A DNA stretch of 64,000 bases from Catellatospora methionotrophica. GTDB taxonomy: Bacteria; Actinomycetota; Actinomycetes; Mycobacteriales; Micromonosporaceae. Under the pieces are notes generated by a model. The model was not told the origin of the DNA. It ran no database searches and saw nothing but the letters and a program-made list of their open reading frames with translations. Shown here piece by piece: positions 13,941 through 34,581 of this stretch; positions within the stretch are counted from its first letter, which is position 1, and each line of letters begins with the position of its first letter. A program made the translations under genes and the position numbers. The stretch covers positions 992,001 through 1,056,000 of the forward strand of contig NZ_JAAOTJ010000001.1 in NCBI RefSeq assembly GCF_011297335.1, read 5' to 3'.

Positions 13941-14860
13941 TCAGCGACATGCAACAGCACCCATGTGCAGGCCCGACAGCGCTGCGCCGGGCACCACCGC
14001 GGAAATCCGGTCGATGAGCCGCCGCACGATCCGGTCGTCGTCGCTCCGCCGGGCGAGCCGCTGCTCCGCCGCGCTCAGATATTGATCGATGCGGACGCGC
14101 CGGTCCTCCGGGATGCGTTCGAGCACAGCGATACCAGTCCAGAACACCTCGGCGGCCGGCACGCTGTCCGGATCGGCCGGTCGCCAGTGCAGCCGGTCGA
14201 GTTCCTCGCCTCGCATGTGGCAAGAACGACGACATCGGAACGGCCTGGCGGGCACAGCCGCTCCAGCACGCTGCGGTCGAGCCCCTGCGGCGTCAGGTAA
14301 CGCTCAAGGTCGTCGAGCCAGACGACGACGTTCCGCAGTTCCTCCCTGGAATCGGCCAGTTCTCGGAGCGCCCGGCCTGACTCCGGAACCAGCAGCCCGT
14401 GCTCTGGCCGCAGGCGGTTAATCGCCTCATAGGCAGTACGGGTCTTGCCCGCCGCGGCACGGCCGTGCACCAGCACCACGCCGCCGCCGGCCACCAACCA
14501 GTCCAGCTCCTTGTCCACCTCGCGTTCGAGGTAGGGAAGGGCGTTCCGGGCGGTCGGCCCGGTGGAACCGATGGCCGCCTTTACCCCGAGCTGGGCCGGG
14601 CGCACGTCGCGGACCCGGGGCAGGTCCCCCTTGGATAGGTGGAGGGCGCACCGCCGCAGGACCTCGCGCCGGGCCTGTAATCGGGGCCGGCCGTGCGCAT
14701 GCAGCACCAGCTGTCCGATCAGCACCGCCGTGCCGGCGACTCCGGCCAGGCCACCGAGGATGCTCATCCACTCATCCGCCTGACTGCGACCCTGCCGGGT
14801 TAGGAAGAAGACGAGCAGAAGAAATCCGAACGTCCCGATTCCTGCGAGCCACCAACGCAC
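13941..14860 (-). pseudogene. Membrane-anchored STAND-type P-loop ATPase, frameshifted
   Basis: From GTG 14860 the protein starts with two membrane segments (about 5-22 and 32-52). A P-loop domain follows, with Walker A HGRAAAGKTRTAYEA and Walker B VVVWLDDLERYL, and then a VVLAT segment that in STAND-like ATPases precedes MR.EE. Here the MRGEELDRLHWRPAD continuation is in another frame: one base is missing near 14220. The downstream frame then runs to a stop at 13941 (ending SGLHMGAVACR). Apart from the one-base loss the gene looks intact, so a recent mutation or a sequencing error is possible. A 9-bp hairpin overlaps the start codon. Confidence 0.7.
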
Positions 14861-15412: not shown

Positions 15413-15898
15413 TCAGAGGTTCGGCAGGTTCGAGACGTCCCAGATCTGTCCAGTGCCATTGGTGGTGAGGTAGATCTGGTTGGAGAAGTCCGTGGCCAGC
15501 CAGCGGGCGGTGTGGACGTTGTACAGCTGGCCGTTAATTCGCTGCCAGGTGGTCCCGGCGCTGCCGCAGGGGCCGGTGTAAACCTGCGTCCAGTTCAGGT
15601 TAGCCAGGCAGGTGCCGAGCACCGACTGCAACCTGAAGGTGGCTGTGCCGGTCCACACCCGCTGCCAGTATTGGCCGCCGGCGTCGGCGGTCGGGCAGCT
15701 GACCATCGAGACGTTGCCGTTGTAGTCGGTGGCCACGCAGTTGTTGGTGACCGTCGACTTGAGCAGCGGGCTGGCTGCCGCGACGGCGGACGACTCGCTG
15801 ACGGATCCCGGGGCGGCCGCCGCCGGAGAGGTCGCCAGCAGGCTGCCGCCCACCGCCGTGATCAGCGCGAAAACCAACACAATCGATCGCTTGAACAA
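15413..15898 (-). CDS. Secreted beta-trefoil-like protein paralogous to the adjacent regulator's ectodomain
   Basis: The 161-residue product has a signal peptide (MFKRSIVLVFALITAVGG start, cleavage after AAAA near 29) and a mature domain of about 115 residues with four cysteines (54, 68, 97, 111). The domain aligns end to end with residues 245-352 of the neighbouring membrane regulator (16123-17181), including NCVATDY/ECLAADY, CLANL/CLANL and LYNVHTARWLATD/LWNVHTGHSLVAD, and all four Cys. It resembles a ricin-type trefoil unit. TTG 15898 is the start, with AAAGGAA about 9 nt upstream; the palindrome CTTGAA...TTCAAG (15892-15908) covers it. It follows the regulator gene in the same direction after a 224-bp spacer. 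Confidence 0.8.
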   Translation of the reverse strand: MFKRSIVLVFALITAVGGSLLATSPAAAAPGSVSESSAVAAASPLLKSTVTNNCVATDYNGNVSMVSCPTADAGGQYWQRVWTGTATFRLQSVLGTCLANLNWTQVYTGPCGSAGTTWQRINGQLYNVHTARWLATDFSNQIYLTTNGTGQIWDVSNLPNL

Positions 15899-16010
15899 GA
15901 TTCAAGTTCCTTTCATCGCTTGACGAGCATCGACCGAGGGTGGCGCCGGCCGGCTTCGGGCCACCTCGATGTCTCGATGTTTGGCCACGTCAGCGGTGCA
16001 GGACAAGGCT

Positions 16011-16106
16011 GCGGGACGGTTGTGGGGCATTCCCGGGGCGCGCTGGCGGCACGCGCTGGCGGTGATCTCCGGCGCGGCGGGACGGTTGCGGGGCGCTCCC
16101 GGGGCA
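16011..16106. repeat. Pair of 30-bp direct repeats in the spacer before the secreted gene
   Basis: 16011-16040 and 16077-16106 are 26/30 identical and lie 66 bp apart in the same orientation. Between them an 11-mer (CGCGCTGGCGG) is itself repeated at 16039 and 16052. The spacing of about six helical turns fits a regulator binding site, possibly for the HTH protein encoded just upstream. Confidence 0.55.
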
Positions 16107-16122
16107 GCGTGGCCGTTCGAGA

Positions 16123-17181
16123 TTAGCGCAACGTCCAGAACTGGCCGGGGGCCTCATCGGGATGTAGGTAGACGTTGTGCGCGAGGTCCGCCACCAAGCT
16201 GTGGCCGGTGTGGACGTTCCAGAGCCGGGAGTTCGAGTCCCAGATCCAGATCATGCCCGGGTCGCCGCCGCTGCAGTCGACGGTGCGGACCGTGTGCGAG
16301 TCCAGGTTCGCGAGGCATCGCCCGATGGCTGCCTGGATCTTGTACTGGGCGTTGCCGAGCGGCATGAGCAGCCAGGTCTGGGCCTTTGCCGGCGCGTCCG
16401 CGCACGAGATCATGTACACGGCGAGATAGTCCGCGGCCAGGCACTCGCCGGTGCCGCCGGCCAGCAGGCGCCGTTGCGTCGAGGGGGCCACTTCTGTCGT
16501 GCCCACAGCGCCGGGCCGGGCGCTGGCGGACGGTGCCGGCGACGCGCCGTTCTGGGACGCCGACCTGGACGGTTGCGCGGAGGGAATGGTCGGCGGGACG
16601 CCCCGCGCCGGCGTGGGCCGTGCGGTGGCGGACTGAAGAACGGGGCCGTCCATGACCTCGTCCGGCGGGTCGGCGCCCCAGGTCAGCCGTCCGATCAGCA
16701 GGCCGACCCCGACCGACGCCATCGCCACCCATGCCGCTACGGACCTGCGCATCATCATCGGCTGCCGCCAGCCATCCGCGTCGCAGTCCGTGCCCGCAAC
16801 GGTGGCGGGCGCGACAGGCGTCGGAGACGCCGTCGTGGCGTCCGGCCCGAGGTCCGGGCCAGCTCCCGGATGCTCAGCGACTGTCGGCGGGGAAGGAGCG
16901 GGCCGCAGCCGGTCGTCGAGCCGGGCGCTGCGCGCCTGCTCCCACAGCACCCGCAGCGAGTCCAGGTCGCCCTTGCCGGTCACGGACAGCGCCTCGGTGA
17001 CCGGCCACGGCGGCACCACCTGGCCGGCGAGGTATCGCGACAATGCCGAGTCGCTGCTGAGCGTCTGCCGGGCAAGCTCACGCAGGCTCATCCCCGACTG
17101 CACCTGCAGTCGGCGCAGTTCCCTGGCCAGCAGTTGCCGGGCGTCGTCGGTCTCGTAGTGCCCATTGCCGTTGCTGGACAA
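16123..17181 (-). CDS. XRE-family HTH regulator with one membrane segment and extracellular beta-trefoil domain
   Basis: The 352-residue protein has an N-terminal XRE-type helix-turn-helix (about 14-75: SGMSLRELARQT, SALSRYLAGQVVPPWP). A linker leads to a single transmembrane segment at about 147-168 (AAWVAMASVGVGLLIGRL), a Pro/Ser-rich extracellular stalk (180-235), and a C-terminal trefoil-like domain (about 243-352) with Cys247, 260, 289 and 303. With DNA binding inside and a lectin-like domain outside, it looks like a one-component transmembrane regulator. The ectodomain is paralogous to the secreted protein encoded next to it, which suggests signal competition or a ligand-mimic relationship (inference). 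Confidence 0.85.
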   Translation of the reverse strand: MSSNGNGHYETDDARQLLARELRRLQVQSGMSLRELARQTLSSDSALSRYLAGQVVPPWPVTEALSVTGKGDLDSLRVLWEQARSARLDDRLRPAPSPPTVAEHPGAGPDLGPDATTASPTPVAPATVAGTDCDADGWRQPMMMRRSVAAWVAMASVGVGLLIGRLTWGADPPDEVMDGPVLQSATARPTPARGVPPTIPSAQPSRSASQNGASPAPSASARPGAVGTTEVAPSTQRRLLAGGTGECLAADYLAVYMISCADAPAKAQTWLLMPLGNAQYKIQAAIGRCLANLDSHTVRTVDCSGGDPGMIWIWDSNSRLWNVHTGHSLVADLAHNVYLHPDEAPGQFWTLR

Positions 17182-31512: not shown

Positions 31513-32643
31513 ATGGTGTACGAACGAATCTATCGGGTCGCTGACGGCGAGCACATCCCTGGCAAATCCCGGCTTGTCTTCGTCAAGAACGGCGGAACCC
31601 ATTTCCTGACGAACCTGACTGTCTACGCCGACGGCGTCATCGACTGCTGGGGTTTGATGAGTTTTGACGAACTGAGGACTAAGCTCGCCACCGGGTGGAT
31701 CACCACACAACCGCTGGACAATGGACAGGCTTCGGCTCACGACCTCGCGCGGTGGCGCTTCGCCGAGCCTCGCAGCCATGTCTCCGCCGACATGCTCATC
31801 GGAGAGCTGCTCGATGTGGTCGACAAGTTGAACCGGCGGCCGGACTCGTCTGAGCGATGCCGTCAGCTCATCGATCGGTACCTAGCCGATCGGAGCGAGG
31901 AGAACCGTCTGGCGATTCGTGCCGCCTACTTCACGATTCCCGAACACCAGCGCCGCAGCATGCTTGGTGACATGGACAGCAAGGACTTCCCGGTCAGGGT
32001 GCTCATCAGCGACATCGGCCAGCCGGCCGTGGGCGGAGCGGGCAGTTTCGCCGTGACCGAGAACGACCACCTGAAGGCGATCGAGTACTTCGTTCGACGC
32101 GCCGAGCATGCCGCCAGCACACTGCAGCATCGGTCAGCCTCCCTACATGACGACCGCCTGTCGCCGACCGTGAACCTGACCCAGGTGCCTTACGCGCGAG
32201 GTTGGCCGGAGCAACCCGGCATTGACGCGCTCACACCCGACTATCCCGCCGAGATCACTGCCTTCGGGTACACCTACCCCTCGATCACCCACGCGATCCT
32301 CGCATTGTCGACCTCGGACCCCGAGTGGCACGACCGGATCGCCCAGGCGGAGGGCCCGAAGGCTGCCCGGACCGCGGCGAAAGGCGCATCCCGCCGAACC
32401 GACTGGGCCGACCGCCGGCTCGCTGTCATGGCAGTGCTGCTGCGCCAGAAGTTCTCACAGCATCCCGAACTGGCAGAAGTCCTGCTCTCGACGGGCGACG
32501 GCCGCATCACCTACTCCGCACTCGATGACAGCTACTTCAGCAGTGGCGGGTACGGCGCGAACTGGTTCGGACGCCTGCTGGAGGTCATCCGCTCAGAACT
32601 CGCACTCGGGACGGATCTTCAGCGCGCAGGCATGTCCTCATAA
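31513..32643 (+). CDS. NADAR-like protein with N-terminal extra domain
   Basis: The 376-residue protein has two parts. Residues 1-110 form a beta-rich domain (RLVFVKNGGTHFLTNLTVYA, DGVIDCWGLMSFDELRTKLA) seen in DUF7638/7639-like proteins. The C-terminal 130 residues match NADAR (DUF1768/YbiA): ITAFGYTYPSITHAILALST, AARTAAKGASRRTDWADRRL, VLLRQKFSQHPELAEVLLST and GANWFGRLLEVIRSEL. NADAR enzymes remove ADP-ribose or related modifications and occur in phage-defence contexts. ATG 31513 is the start. It lies between IS6 remnants of opposite orientation. The domain is inferred from motif order, with the N-glycosidase residues not verified. Confidence 0.75.
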   Translation: MVYERIYRVADGEHIPGKSRLVFVKNGGTHFLTNLTVYADGVIDCWGLMSFDELRTKLATGWITTQPLDNGQASAHDLARWRFAEPRSHVSADMLIGELLDVVDKLNRRPDSSERCRQLIDRYLADRSEENRLAIRAAYFTIPEHQRRSMLGDMDSKDFPVRVLISDIGQPAVGGAGSFAVTENDHLKAIEYFVRRAEHAASTLQHRSASLHDDRLSPTVNLTQVPYARGWPEQPGIDALTPDYPAEITAFGYTYPSITHAILALSTSDPEWHDRIAQAEGPKAARTAAKGASRRTDWADRRLAVMAVLLRQKFSQHPELAEVLLSTGDGRITYSALDDSYFSSGGYGANWFGRLLEVIRSELALGTDLQRAGMSS

Positions 32644-33517: not shown

Positions 33518-34501
33518 TCAGAGAGTGTCTTCAACCTTGAGGTAACCGCGTTGGACCACGAACCGCTGGTTGGTGTGGTTGAGGCACTGCCAGATCCTGG
33601 CGTTGTCGCCGTTGTTGCGGGTGCCGCCGATGTCCAGGCACATCTGTGCGGTGGTGCCGATGGTGTCCTTCAGGACGAGGTTGCCGTTGCGGACGACCCA
33701 CTGCTGGTTGGTGTTACCGGCCGCGCACTTCCAGAGGAACACGTTGGCGCCGTTGTTGCGGGCGCCCGCGTCGAGGCACATCTCGTTGGCGGTGCCGACG
33801 GTGTCGGCGATCTTGACCCGCCCGCCTTCGATTTCGAACCGCTGGTTGGTGTGGTTGAGGCACTGCCAGATCCTGACGTTGTCACCGTTGCTACGCCCGC
33901 CGACGTCCAGGCACATGCCGGCGCGGCCGGTCACGGGCGCGGGCGTGGCGACGGTCAGCGTACCGTCGGTGATCGTCAGGGTTTTGCCGGCGTTGACGTC
34001 GTTGTAGGTGATGGCGGCGGTGCCCGACGGGCTCAGCGTGGTGCCGGCGGGGGCGTTGGGGTTGACGGTGACCTGCGGGGTGAAGCGGAAGAAGCCGCCG
34101 GACGGCCAGCTGCTGTAGCCGCCGCTGATGCCGAATGCCTCGCAGGTAAGGGTCGTGGCGTTGTTGCTGAGGGCGCAGCCGCGCAGGCTGAGGTTGTTGG
34201 AGATCCAGTCGGTGCCGTCCGGGCTGTACTGGCCGGGCATCGTGGCTTGTGGCGCGAAGGTGGTGTTGCCCGGCGCGGTGAACACGACGGAACTGCCGGA
34301 CGCGGGGAACAGGCCGGGACCGCCGGTGTTGTGGTACGTGAACCGGACGGGCCCGGTGTCGCCTGGGGCGATGACCGCGGTGCTGGGCACGTCTTGGCCG
34401 ACGAAGGGGTCTGCGACCGCAGGGGTGGCCCACATCGCCGTGAGAGCGAGTGTGGCGCCGACACCTACGGCGGCCCGGCTCAGGTGGGACTTCAGAGGCA
34501 T
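33518..34501 (-). CDS. Secreted protein with C-terminal ricin-type beta-trefoil lectin domain
   Basis: Start ATG 34501 (MPLKSHLSRAAVGVGATLAL) gives a normal signal peptide cleaved after AVA; an upstream ATG at 34561 adds residues without support. The 327-residue protein has an N-terminal beta-sandwich-like region (about 32-190) and a trefoil lectin domain built of three copies of CLD.GG..NGDN..IWQCLNH, each ending NQ(R/Q)(F/W). Ricin-type domains bind sugars such as galactose and xylan. No catalytic domain is recognised, so it may be a carbohydrate-binding or surface protein. Confidence 0.88.
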   Translation of the reverse strand: MPLKSHLSRAAVGVGATLALTAMWATPAVADPFVGQDVPSTAVIAPGDTGPVRFTYHNTGGPGLFPASGSSVVFTAPGNTTFAPQATMPGQYSPDGTDWISNNLSLRGCALSNNATTLTCEAFGISGGYSSWPSGGFFRFTPQVTVNPNAPAGTTLSPSGTAAITYNDVNAGKTLTITDGTLTVATPAPVTGRAGMCLDVGGRSNGDNVRIWQCLNHTNQRFEIEGGRVKIADTVGTANEMCLDAGARNNGANVFLWKCAAGNTNQQWVVRNGNLVLKDTIGTTAQMCLDIGGTRNNGDNARIWQCLNHTNQRFVVQRGYLKVEDTL

Positions 34502-34581
34502 AACGATCTTTCTGGTCGACGGTTTCGGGCACGGGCGCGCGCACACCAGCCCCGAGATCATCTACTAACATCCAGGGGGCG

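Follow-up and report, generated by a model that had tools for sequence, protein, structure and literature searches.

A predicted membrane-spanning regulator with an actinohivin-like ectodomain is encoded beside a secreted paralogue of that ectodomain

Two neighbouring genes in the window (the 64,000-nucleotide stretch of Catellatospora methionotrophica DNA analysed here) encode a helix-turn-helix (HTH) protein with one predicted membrane helix and a C-terminal actinohivin-like beta-trefoil, and a protein in which a second copy of that trefoil follows a signal-like start (Table 1). The genes stand in tandem on the minus strand, the regulator gene first and the secreted-protein gene second, with a gap of 224 bp, which agrees with their initial annotation as same-strand neighbours. 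Their pairing is more than chance: they lie side by side, and no third trefoil of the same type was found in the 8.39-Mb genome in searches with each protein and with profiles. Third-position G+C is 0.89 for the regulator and 0.90 for the secreted protein, and ranges from 0.79 to 0.93 in the eight other window genes measured. The stem directly past the secreted gene is absent from the output of the terminator scan, which demands a T run. We place about even confidence in the reading that the pair comprises a transmembrane one-component regulator that would sense an extracellular glycan and would control the adjacent secreted lectin, itself of related specificity.

Table 1. Features of the gene pair, given as window positions with the evidence for each.
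Feature	Positions	Strand	Basis or remark
Regulator gene	16123..17181	minus	TTG start, 352 aa; HTH - TM - linker - beta-trefoil
HTH_31 domain, residues 18-65	16987..17130	minus	Pfam PF13560, E = 3.3e-10, above cut-off
Predicted single membrane helix, residues 148-166	16684..16740	minus	mean hydropathy 1.81
Pro/Ala/Ser-rich linker, residues 169-234 (66 residues)	16480..16677	minus	composition
Actinohivin-like beta-trefoil of regulator, residues 236-352	16126..16476	minus	AF2 model, Foldseek
32-nt direct repeat, second copy	16074..16105	minus	88% identical; start-to-start 66 nt
32-nt direct repeat, copy nearer secreted gene	16008..16039	minus	candidate regulator site
Secreted actinohivin-like protein gene	15413..15898	minus	TTG start, 161 aa
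Predicted signal peptide (visual estimate of its end: about residue 29)	15812..15898	minus	hydropathy 2.17 at residues 6-24
Trefoil of secreted protein, residues 42-156	15431..15775	minus	purpose-built HMM; phmmer to 3a07, E = 1e-5
Perfect 13-bp stem with 4-nt loop	15375..15404	minus	directly past secreted gene; possible terminator without T run

The regulator joins a DNA-binding domain and a transmembrane region in one chain, the membrane part being assigned by hydropathy only, as is characteristic of transmembrane transcription regulators (TTRs). Its predicted helix is immediately preceded by RR and soon followed by acidic residues, charges from which an N-in/C-out topology is predicted. The C-terminal domain was modelled as a beta-trefoil by AF2 with a pLDDT of 92.1 and a pTM of 0.83 from a 33-row alignment, in which MAFFT had displaced the rows from the window by the length of one trefoil module relative to the other rows; the three modules are pseudo-equivalents of one another, and despite the shift the model matches actinohivin across its full length. 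Superposed on actinohivin (4end), it gives a Z of 19.4 and 1.4 Å over 110 residues at 28% identity, and actinohivin is also its best natural Foldseek match (E = 1.7e-7), with designed trefoils scoring equally high. At the level of Pfam the same region, residues 244-347, is a sub-threshold Ricin_B_lectin match (19.9 bits against a cut-off of 29). The three-part architecture that had been read from the sequence alone, with an HTH, one membrane helix and a trefoil-like domain, is thus borne out by the HTH_31 match, the hydropathy and the model.

Kinship between the regulator ectodomain and the secreted protein is evident from direct comparison, with 47 of 132 aligned residues identical (36%; BLASTP, E = 1e-18). 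Cysteines 247, 260, 289 and 303 of the regulator align with 54, 68, 97 and 111 of the secreted protein, and the motifs CLANL and NVHT are common to both, which confirms the shared cysteines and motifs noted in the initial annotation. Its further description of the secreted protein as a paralogue of the ectodomain with a signal peptide holds as well, given this identity and the signal-like start, and the similarity between the two domains that it proposed for checking proved significant, by BLASTP and with a beta-trefoil model on the regulator side. A two-row fold model of the secreted domain reached a pLDDT of only 40, so the fold of this protein is assigned by sequence similarity: among PDB sequences at E ≤ 1, actinohivin alone matches it (3a07, E = 1e-5; 4den, E = 2.9e-5). 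It has no Pfam Ricin_B_lectin match, and neither window protein reaches the gathering score of that family. Both fall within the actinohivin branch of the R-type lectins, the regulator by its modelled beta-trefoil and the secreted protein by sequence only.

Actinohivin, likewise a secreted three-module R-type beta-trefoil (PDB 3a07, 4den, 4end), is described in the sections of PMC3498932 used here as holding mannose in three pockets, each with an Asp at its base. Unlike actinohivin, both window proteins have lost these residues: at the corresponding positions 15, 53 and 91 the regulator has A, A and V, and the secreted protein A, A and A. Mannose binding is therefore unlikely for either, and mannose sensing as in actinohivin was dropped as the default; any glycan binding by the window trefoils is putative. 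Six related secreted proteins from the same bacterial family all have Ala at 15 (6/6) and Asp at 17 (6/6), and the latter is also present in both window proteins, so this branch probably has a different ligand or a different mode of binding. The actinohivin gene itself is present in a genome of the window organism's family (G073, presumably Longispora albida). Its locus was considered as a model for the window pair and rejected, as neither the 16 kb around it (L050) nor the 13.5 kb around a second actinohivin homologue (L049) contains an HTH-trefoil ORF. We know of no established natural role for actinohivin-type lectins in actinobacteria.

Searching plasmids with the regulator led to Streptomyces proteins, annotated “RICIN domain-containing protein”, whose HTHs it matched. 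With the ectodomain of these plasmid HTH-trefoil proteins as query, a scan of 84,980 species genomes gave 31 loci, 28 in Streptomyces and 3 in Lentzea. At 28 of the 31, and at all three plasmid loci (L087, L088 and L090), a single ORF encodes both HTH and trefoil; the other three chromosomal loci (L109, L114 and L117) have a trefoil with no HTH match. The HTH-TM-trefoil architecture is therefore not unique to the window organism. These relatives, annotated as “RICIN domain-containing protein” or “helix-turn-helix domain-containing protein”, share the domain order of the window regulator, and some have a secreted trefoil nearby (3/31 chromosomal loci, L106 of Streptomyces avidinii, L107 and L113; 2/3 plasmids, L087 and L088). 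Outside their own group, the secreted Streptomyces trefoils are closest to regulator ectodomains (42-46% identity). No secreted trefoil was seen in the DNA examined at the remaining 29 of 34 loci; five of the 31 chromosomal loci were shorter than the requested flanks. Whereas the window genes are adjacent and in tandem, the Streptomyces secreted genes are divergent from the regulator with an NlpC/P60-like gene in between. A GH43 gene occurs at 25 of the 34 loci and an NlpC/P60-like gene at 13 (the NlpC/P60 match of the member scanned falls just below the Pfam cut-off), making the neighbours glycan- and wall-related.

Within the window organism's own lineage the pair stands by itself. No ectodomain match was found in 10 genomes of the same genus, and 60 of 354 same-family genomes contain a trefoil match at E ≤ 0.01 (three-row profile; 12 candidates scored per genome), none of the 354 yielding a second copy of the pair. 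Scanning 95 loci, many of them overlapping, some the window's own and together covering part of the profile matches, with purpose-built HTH and trefoil models recovered HTH and trefoil in one ORF only in the window itself. An orthologous pair elsewhere among these scanned loci was accordingly rejected, and the pair appears to be rare, and recent or patchy, in the family. A contig scan of genomes with the window pair as query returned 53 stretches and no confirmed relatives. Conservation of the two genes as neighbours, which had been suggested as a check on their association, thus finds a partial answer: a comparable regulator and secreted trefoil co-occur at the five Streptomyces loci above, but divergently and with a third gene between them, and no second copy of the window pair was found in the 354 family genomes.

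Several other proteins are of note. Seven, at L092, L093, L098, L100, L102, L103 and L105, have a likely membrane helix, a long Pro/Ala linker and an actinohivin-like trefoil with no HTH match; they belong to another family of the class, and L092 and L103 are neighbouring copies within one genome. The window also encodes a more distant and unrelated secreted Ricin_B_lectin protein 17 kb from the pair (33518-34561, minus; E = 2e-20, residues 212-334), a 261-aa ORF that is hydrophobic near its N-terminus, matches AAA_16 weakly and is possibly a truncated STAND-type gene (14075-14860, minus), and a DUF7638-DUF7639-NADAR protein, a combination that may mark a conflict or defence gene (31513-32643, plus).

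Phylogenetic placement separates the window ectodomain from those of the Streptomyces/Lentzea regulators. The two window domains come out as sisters (97/91) in a tree built from 61 trefoil domains and group with the six secreted proteins of their own bacterial family (100/98). The 31 Streptomyces/Lentzea regulator trefoils make up a group of their own (99/97), to which five Streptomyces secreted partners and one row on a long branch attach (100/96). A tree that forces the window regulator trefoil in among the Streptomyces/Lentzea regulators is worse by 39 log units (AU p = 0.004); without the secreted protein the same test gives p = 0.036. The tool warned that long branches meet in this tree; the alignment was checked and is in register, and when either window protein is omitted the remaining one stays with the six secreted proteins (100/99 and 100/96). 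Recruitment of the window regulator's trefoil therefore took place within its own lineage, either at the first assembly of the regulator or in replacement of an older ectodomain. In both cases the pairing of regulator and secreted copy in the window is separate from that in Streptomyces, and the arrangement has probably formed twice.

Candidate control sequences were sought around both sets of genes. In the window, two copies of a 32-nt direct repeat lie 110-207 nt before the lectin start; its 16-nt core has exact matches nowhere else in the 8.39 Mb, and matches at 1-2 mismatches are no commoner than for a control (19 vs 27). A pattern search upstream of the regulator did not find the repeat. 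A shared operator was rejected, the two upstream regions having no common word of at least 10 nt and no more 8-9-mers than shuffles, as was a TCCCG-N-CGGGA palindrome upstream of the regulator, which is not above shuffles (1 vs 1.2). At 29 of the 31 Streptomyces/Lentzea loci, CTGACCTGCTGGGAC occurs near the regulator start at ≤ 3 mismatches, 19 of them exact, mostly 37 nt past TCCCGNTTGCTTC within a strongly conserved 60-nt stretch, TCCCGNTTGCTTC...CTGACCTGCTGGGAC, upstream of the HTH-trefoil gene (L106-L136). Conservation of CTGACCTGCTGGGAC would fit autoregulation or any conserved promoter. GH43 was considered as part of a shared regulon and rejected: in the 420 nt before the matched GH43 start the motif is absent at all but one of 25 loci, the best scores of the other 24 lying below zero and that of L125 at 4.1. 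Nor was any motif found that the promoters of secreted lectins and of regulators have in common in Streptomyces. At L118, L119, L123, L125 and L136, motif copies occur some 500 nt further out from GH43, and copies of the conserved stretch lie on the other strand, 2.7-2.9 kb downstream.

In the mechanism we favour, the regulator would be anchored in the membrane with its HTH in the cytoplasm, where it would bind DNA, and its trefoil outside, kept off the membrane by the flexible linker. The trefoil would bind an extracellular glycan, be it of the organism's own wall, of another microbe or of plant or fungal matter, and a polymer showing the right glycan could engage several pockets and several receptors. 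Such a multivalent ligand might cluster or reorient the regulators, bringing their HTHs together, or might expose the chain to a protease. We infer that both genes, that of the regulator and that of the secreted lectin beside it, would then be transcribed at a different level, in whichever direction, the lectin gene being the obvious target. Once outside, the lectin may bind the same or a related ligand, serving adhesion, aggregation or the keeping of enzymes near, and by competing for that ligand it could exert feedback on its own receptor. The HTH_31 match, the R-type ectodomain model, the adjacent paralogue, the repeat between the window genes, the family in Streptomyces and Lentzea with its glycan- and wall-related neighbours and its conserved CTGACCTGCTGGGAC, and the precedent of ECF52 SCO4117 (see below) argue for this mechanism. 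Counting against it are the missing pocket aspartates, the window repeat not being seen upstream of the regulator, the Streptomyces motif not being seen before GH43 or shared with the secreted-lectin promoters, the 29 of 34 loci at which no secreted trefoil was seen, and the failure to find an orthologue of the window pair. On balance we give it an even chance.

Other accounts of the same genes assign the secreted protein a different part, or none. One that we regard as fairly unlikely is a tandem domain duplication with no functional link, in which the trefoil was copied from the lectin into an HTH-TM gene next to it, or in the opposite direction, after which the genes came to act independently. 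Occurrence of the pair in a single genome of the 354 searched in the family, the moderate divergence of the domains (36% identity) and a gap that leaves space for separate promoters are what such a history would produce, but it sits poorly with the similar coupling in Streptomyces, fixed in place across L087, L088, L106, L107 and L113, and with the repeat situated between the window genes. An unlikely alternative keeps the functional link and makes the secreted protein the regulator's signal or competitor, through trefoil-trefoil contact or the same glycan, so that the cell would gauge released lectin, that of its kin included. The adjacency of paralogous domains at 36% identity and their sister placement in the trefoil tree are consistent with such a circuit; however, actinohivin-type trefoils are not known to self-associate, and since no secreted partner was seen in the DNA examined at most Streptomyces/Lentzea loci, a partner is not needed for the regulators of that family. 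It is also rather doubtful that the secreted protein acts as a soluble receptor counterpart, competing with its membrane paralogue for glycan or ferrying glycan to it, with the regulator reading the balance of free glycan and lectin and with such pairs having formed more than once in actinobacteria.

Two further readings concern the regulator itself. Bitopic HTH-TM proteins of structural role exist, RodZ being the precedent, and the window protein could by analogy use its HTH for protein contacts and dock its trefoil on cell-wall or surface glycan; we consider this very improbable, for its domain is HTH_31 and not a RodZ-type HTH, the DSxLSRY helix is kept in the Streptomyces relatives, and a conserved sequence lies near the start of those relatives' genes. 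Hardly to be expected, finally, is an ectodomain replacement, as opposed to an independent origin, whereby the HTH-TM part of the window regulator would be of common descent with that of the Streptomyces family, and a copy of its neighbour's trefoil would stand in place of the old one. By identity, the HTH nearest to that of the window regulator belongs to a Streptomyces protein (L124, 45%), and forcing the window HTH into the Streptomyces group is not rejected (AU p = 0.32); the best HTH tree nevertheless sets it outside the Streptomyces/Lentzea group (31 regulators, 95/88), and under either history the window pairing is separate from the Streptomyces one.

The favoured mechanism has relatives among described systems. 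TTRs are a recognised, widespread kind of protein (Demey et al. 2023, PMC10269533), and as characterised in the parts of that paper drawn on here they are, like the window regulator, single-pass proteins with a cytoplasmic DNA-binding domain and an outside domain in one chain; unlike the window pair, their definition there does not include a secreted copy of the ectodomain, and the words “ricin” and “lectin” are absent from the paper's main text. ECF52 SCO4117, in the portions of PMC5826349 cited here, resembles the window regulator in several ways: it is an actinobacterial transcription protein, it is tethered to the membrane, and it combines a proline-rich linker with a carbohydrate-binding domain. 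It differs in having a sigma factor and zinc finger in place of the HTH, and another carbohydrate-binding module, and those portions describe no secreted paralogue; the Pfam scan of the window regulator returned HTH and weak lectin matches only, with none of the sigma-70-like domains or zinc finger of ECF52. For ECF52 the same source presents autoregulation as a candidate and proposes protease exposure, and in S. clavuligerus a separate ORF encodes the carbohydrate module, a split that in the authors' view may be a sequencing error. Clostridium thermocellum RsgI, from the excerpts used here, likewise places extracytoplasmic sensory modules on a membrane protein and steers genes for secreted polysaccharide-active proteins (PMC6056542; PMC12203970), but as an anti-sigma factor in a two-protein system with proteolysis and other modules (PMC6056542). 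A literature search that covered few subscription papers found nothing on an HTH-TM-trefoil regulator or on its pairing with a secreted copy. The claim of the initial annotation that no characterised one-component system is so arranged therefore stands for the arrangement, whereas the kind of protein is known from TTRs and ECF52: this is a known kind in a new arrangement.

A regulator with a lectin domain encoded beside a lectin gene would provide a direct genetic handle, as what switches the regulator would reveal the purpose of the lectin. The finding also points to an undescribed set of HTH-TM-lectin regulators, which in Streptomyces and Lentzea are linked to GH43 genes and to genes resembling those of wall hydrolases. 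Together with the similar pairing in Streptomyces, the window pair suggests a simple circuit whose input may be a sugar polymer outside the cell or else the secreted lectin.
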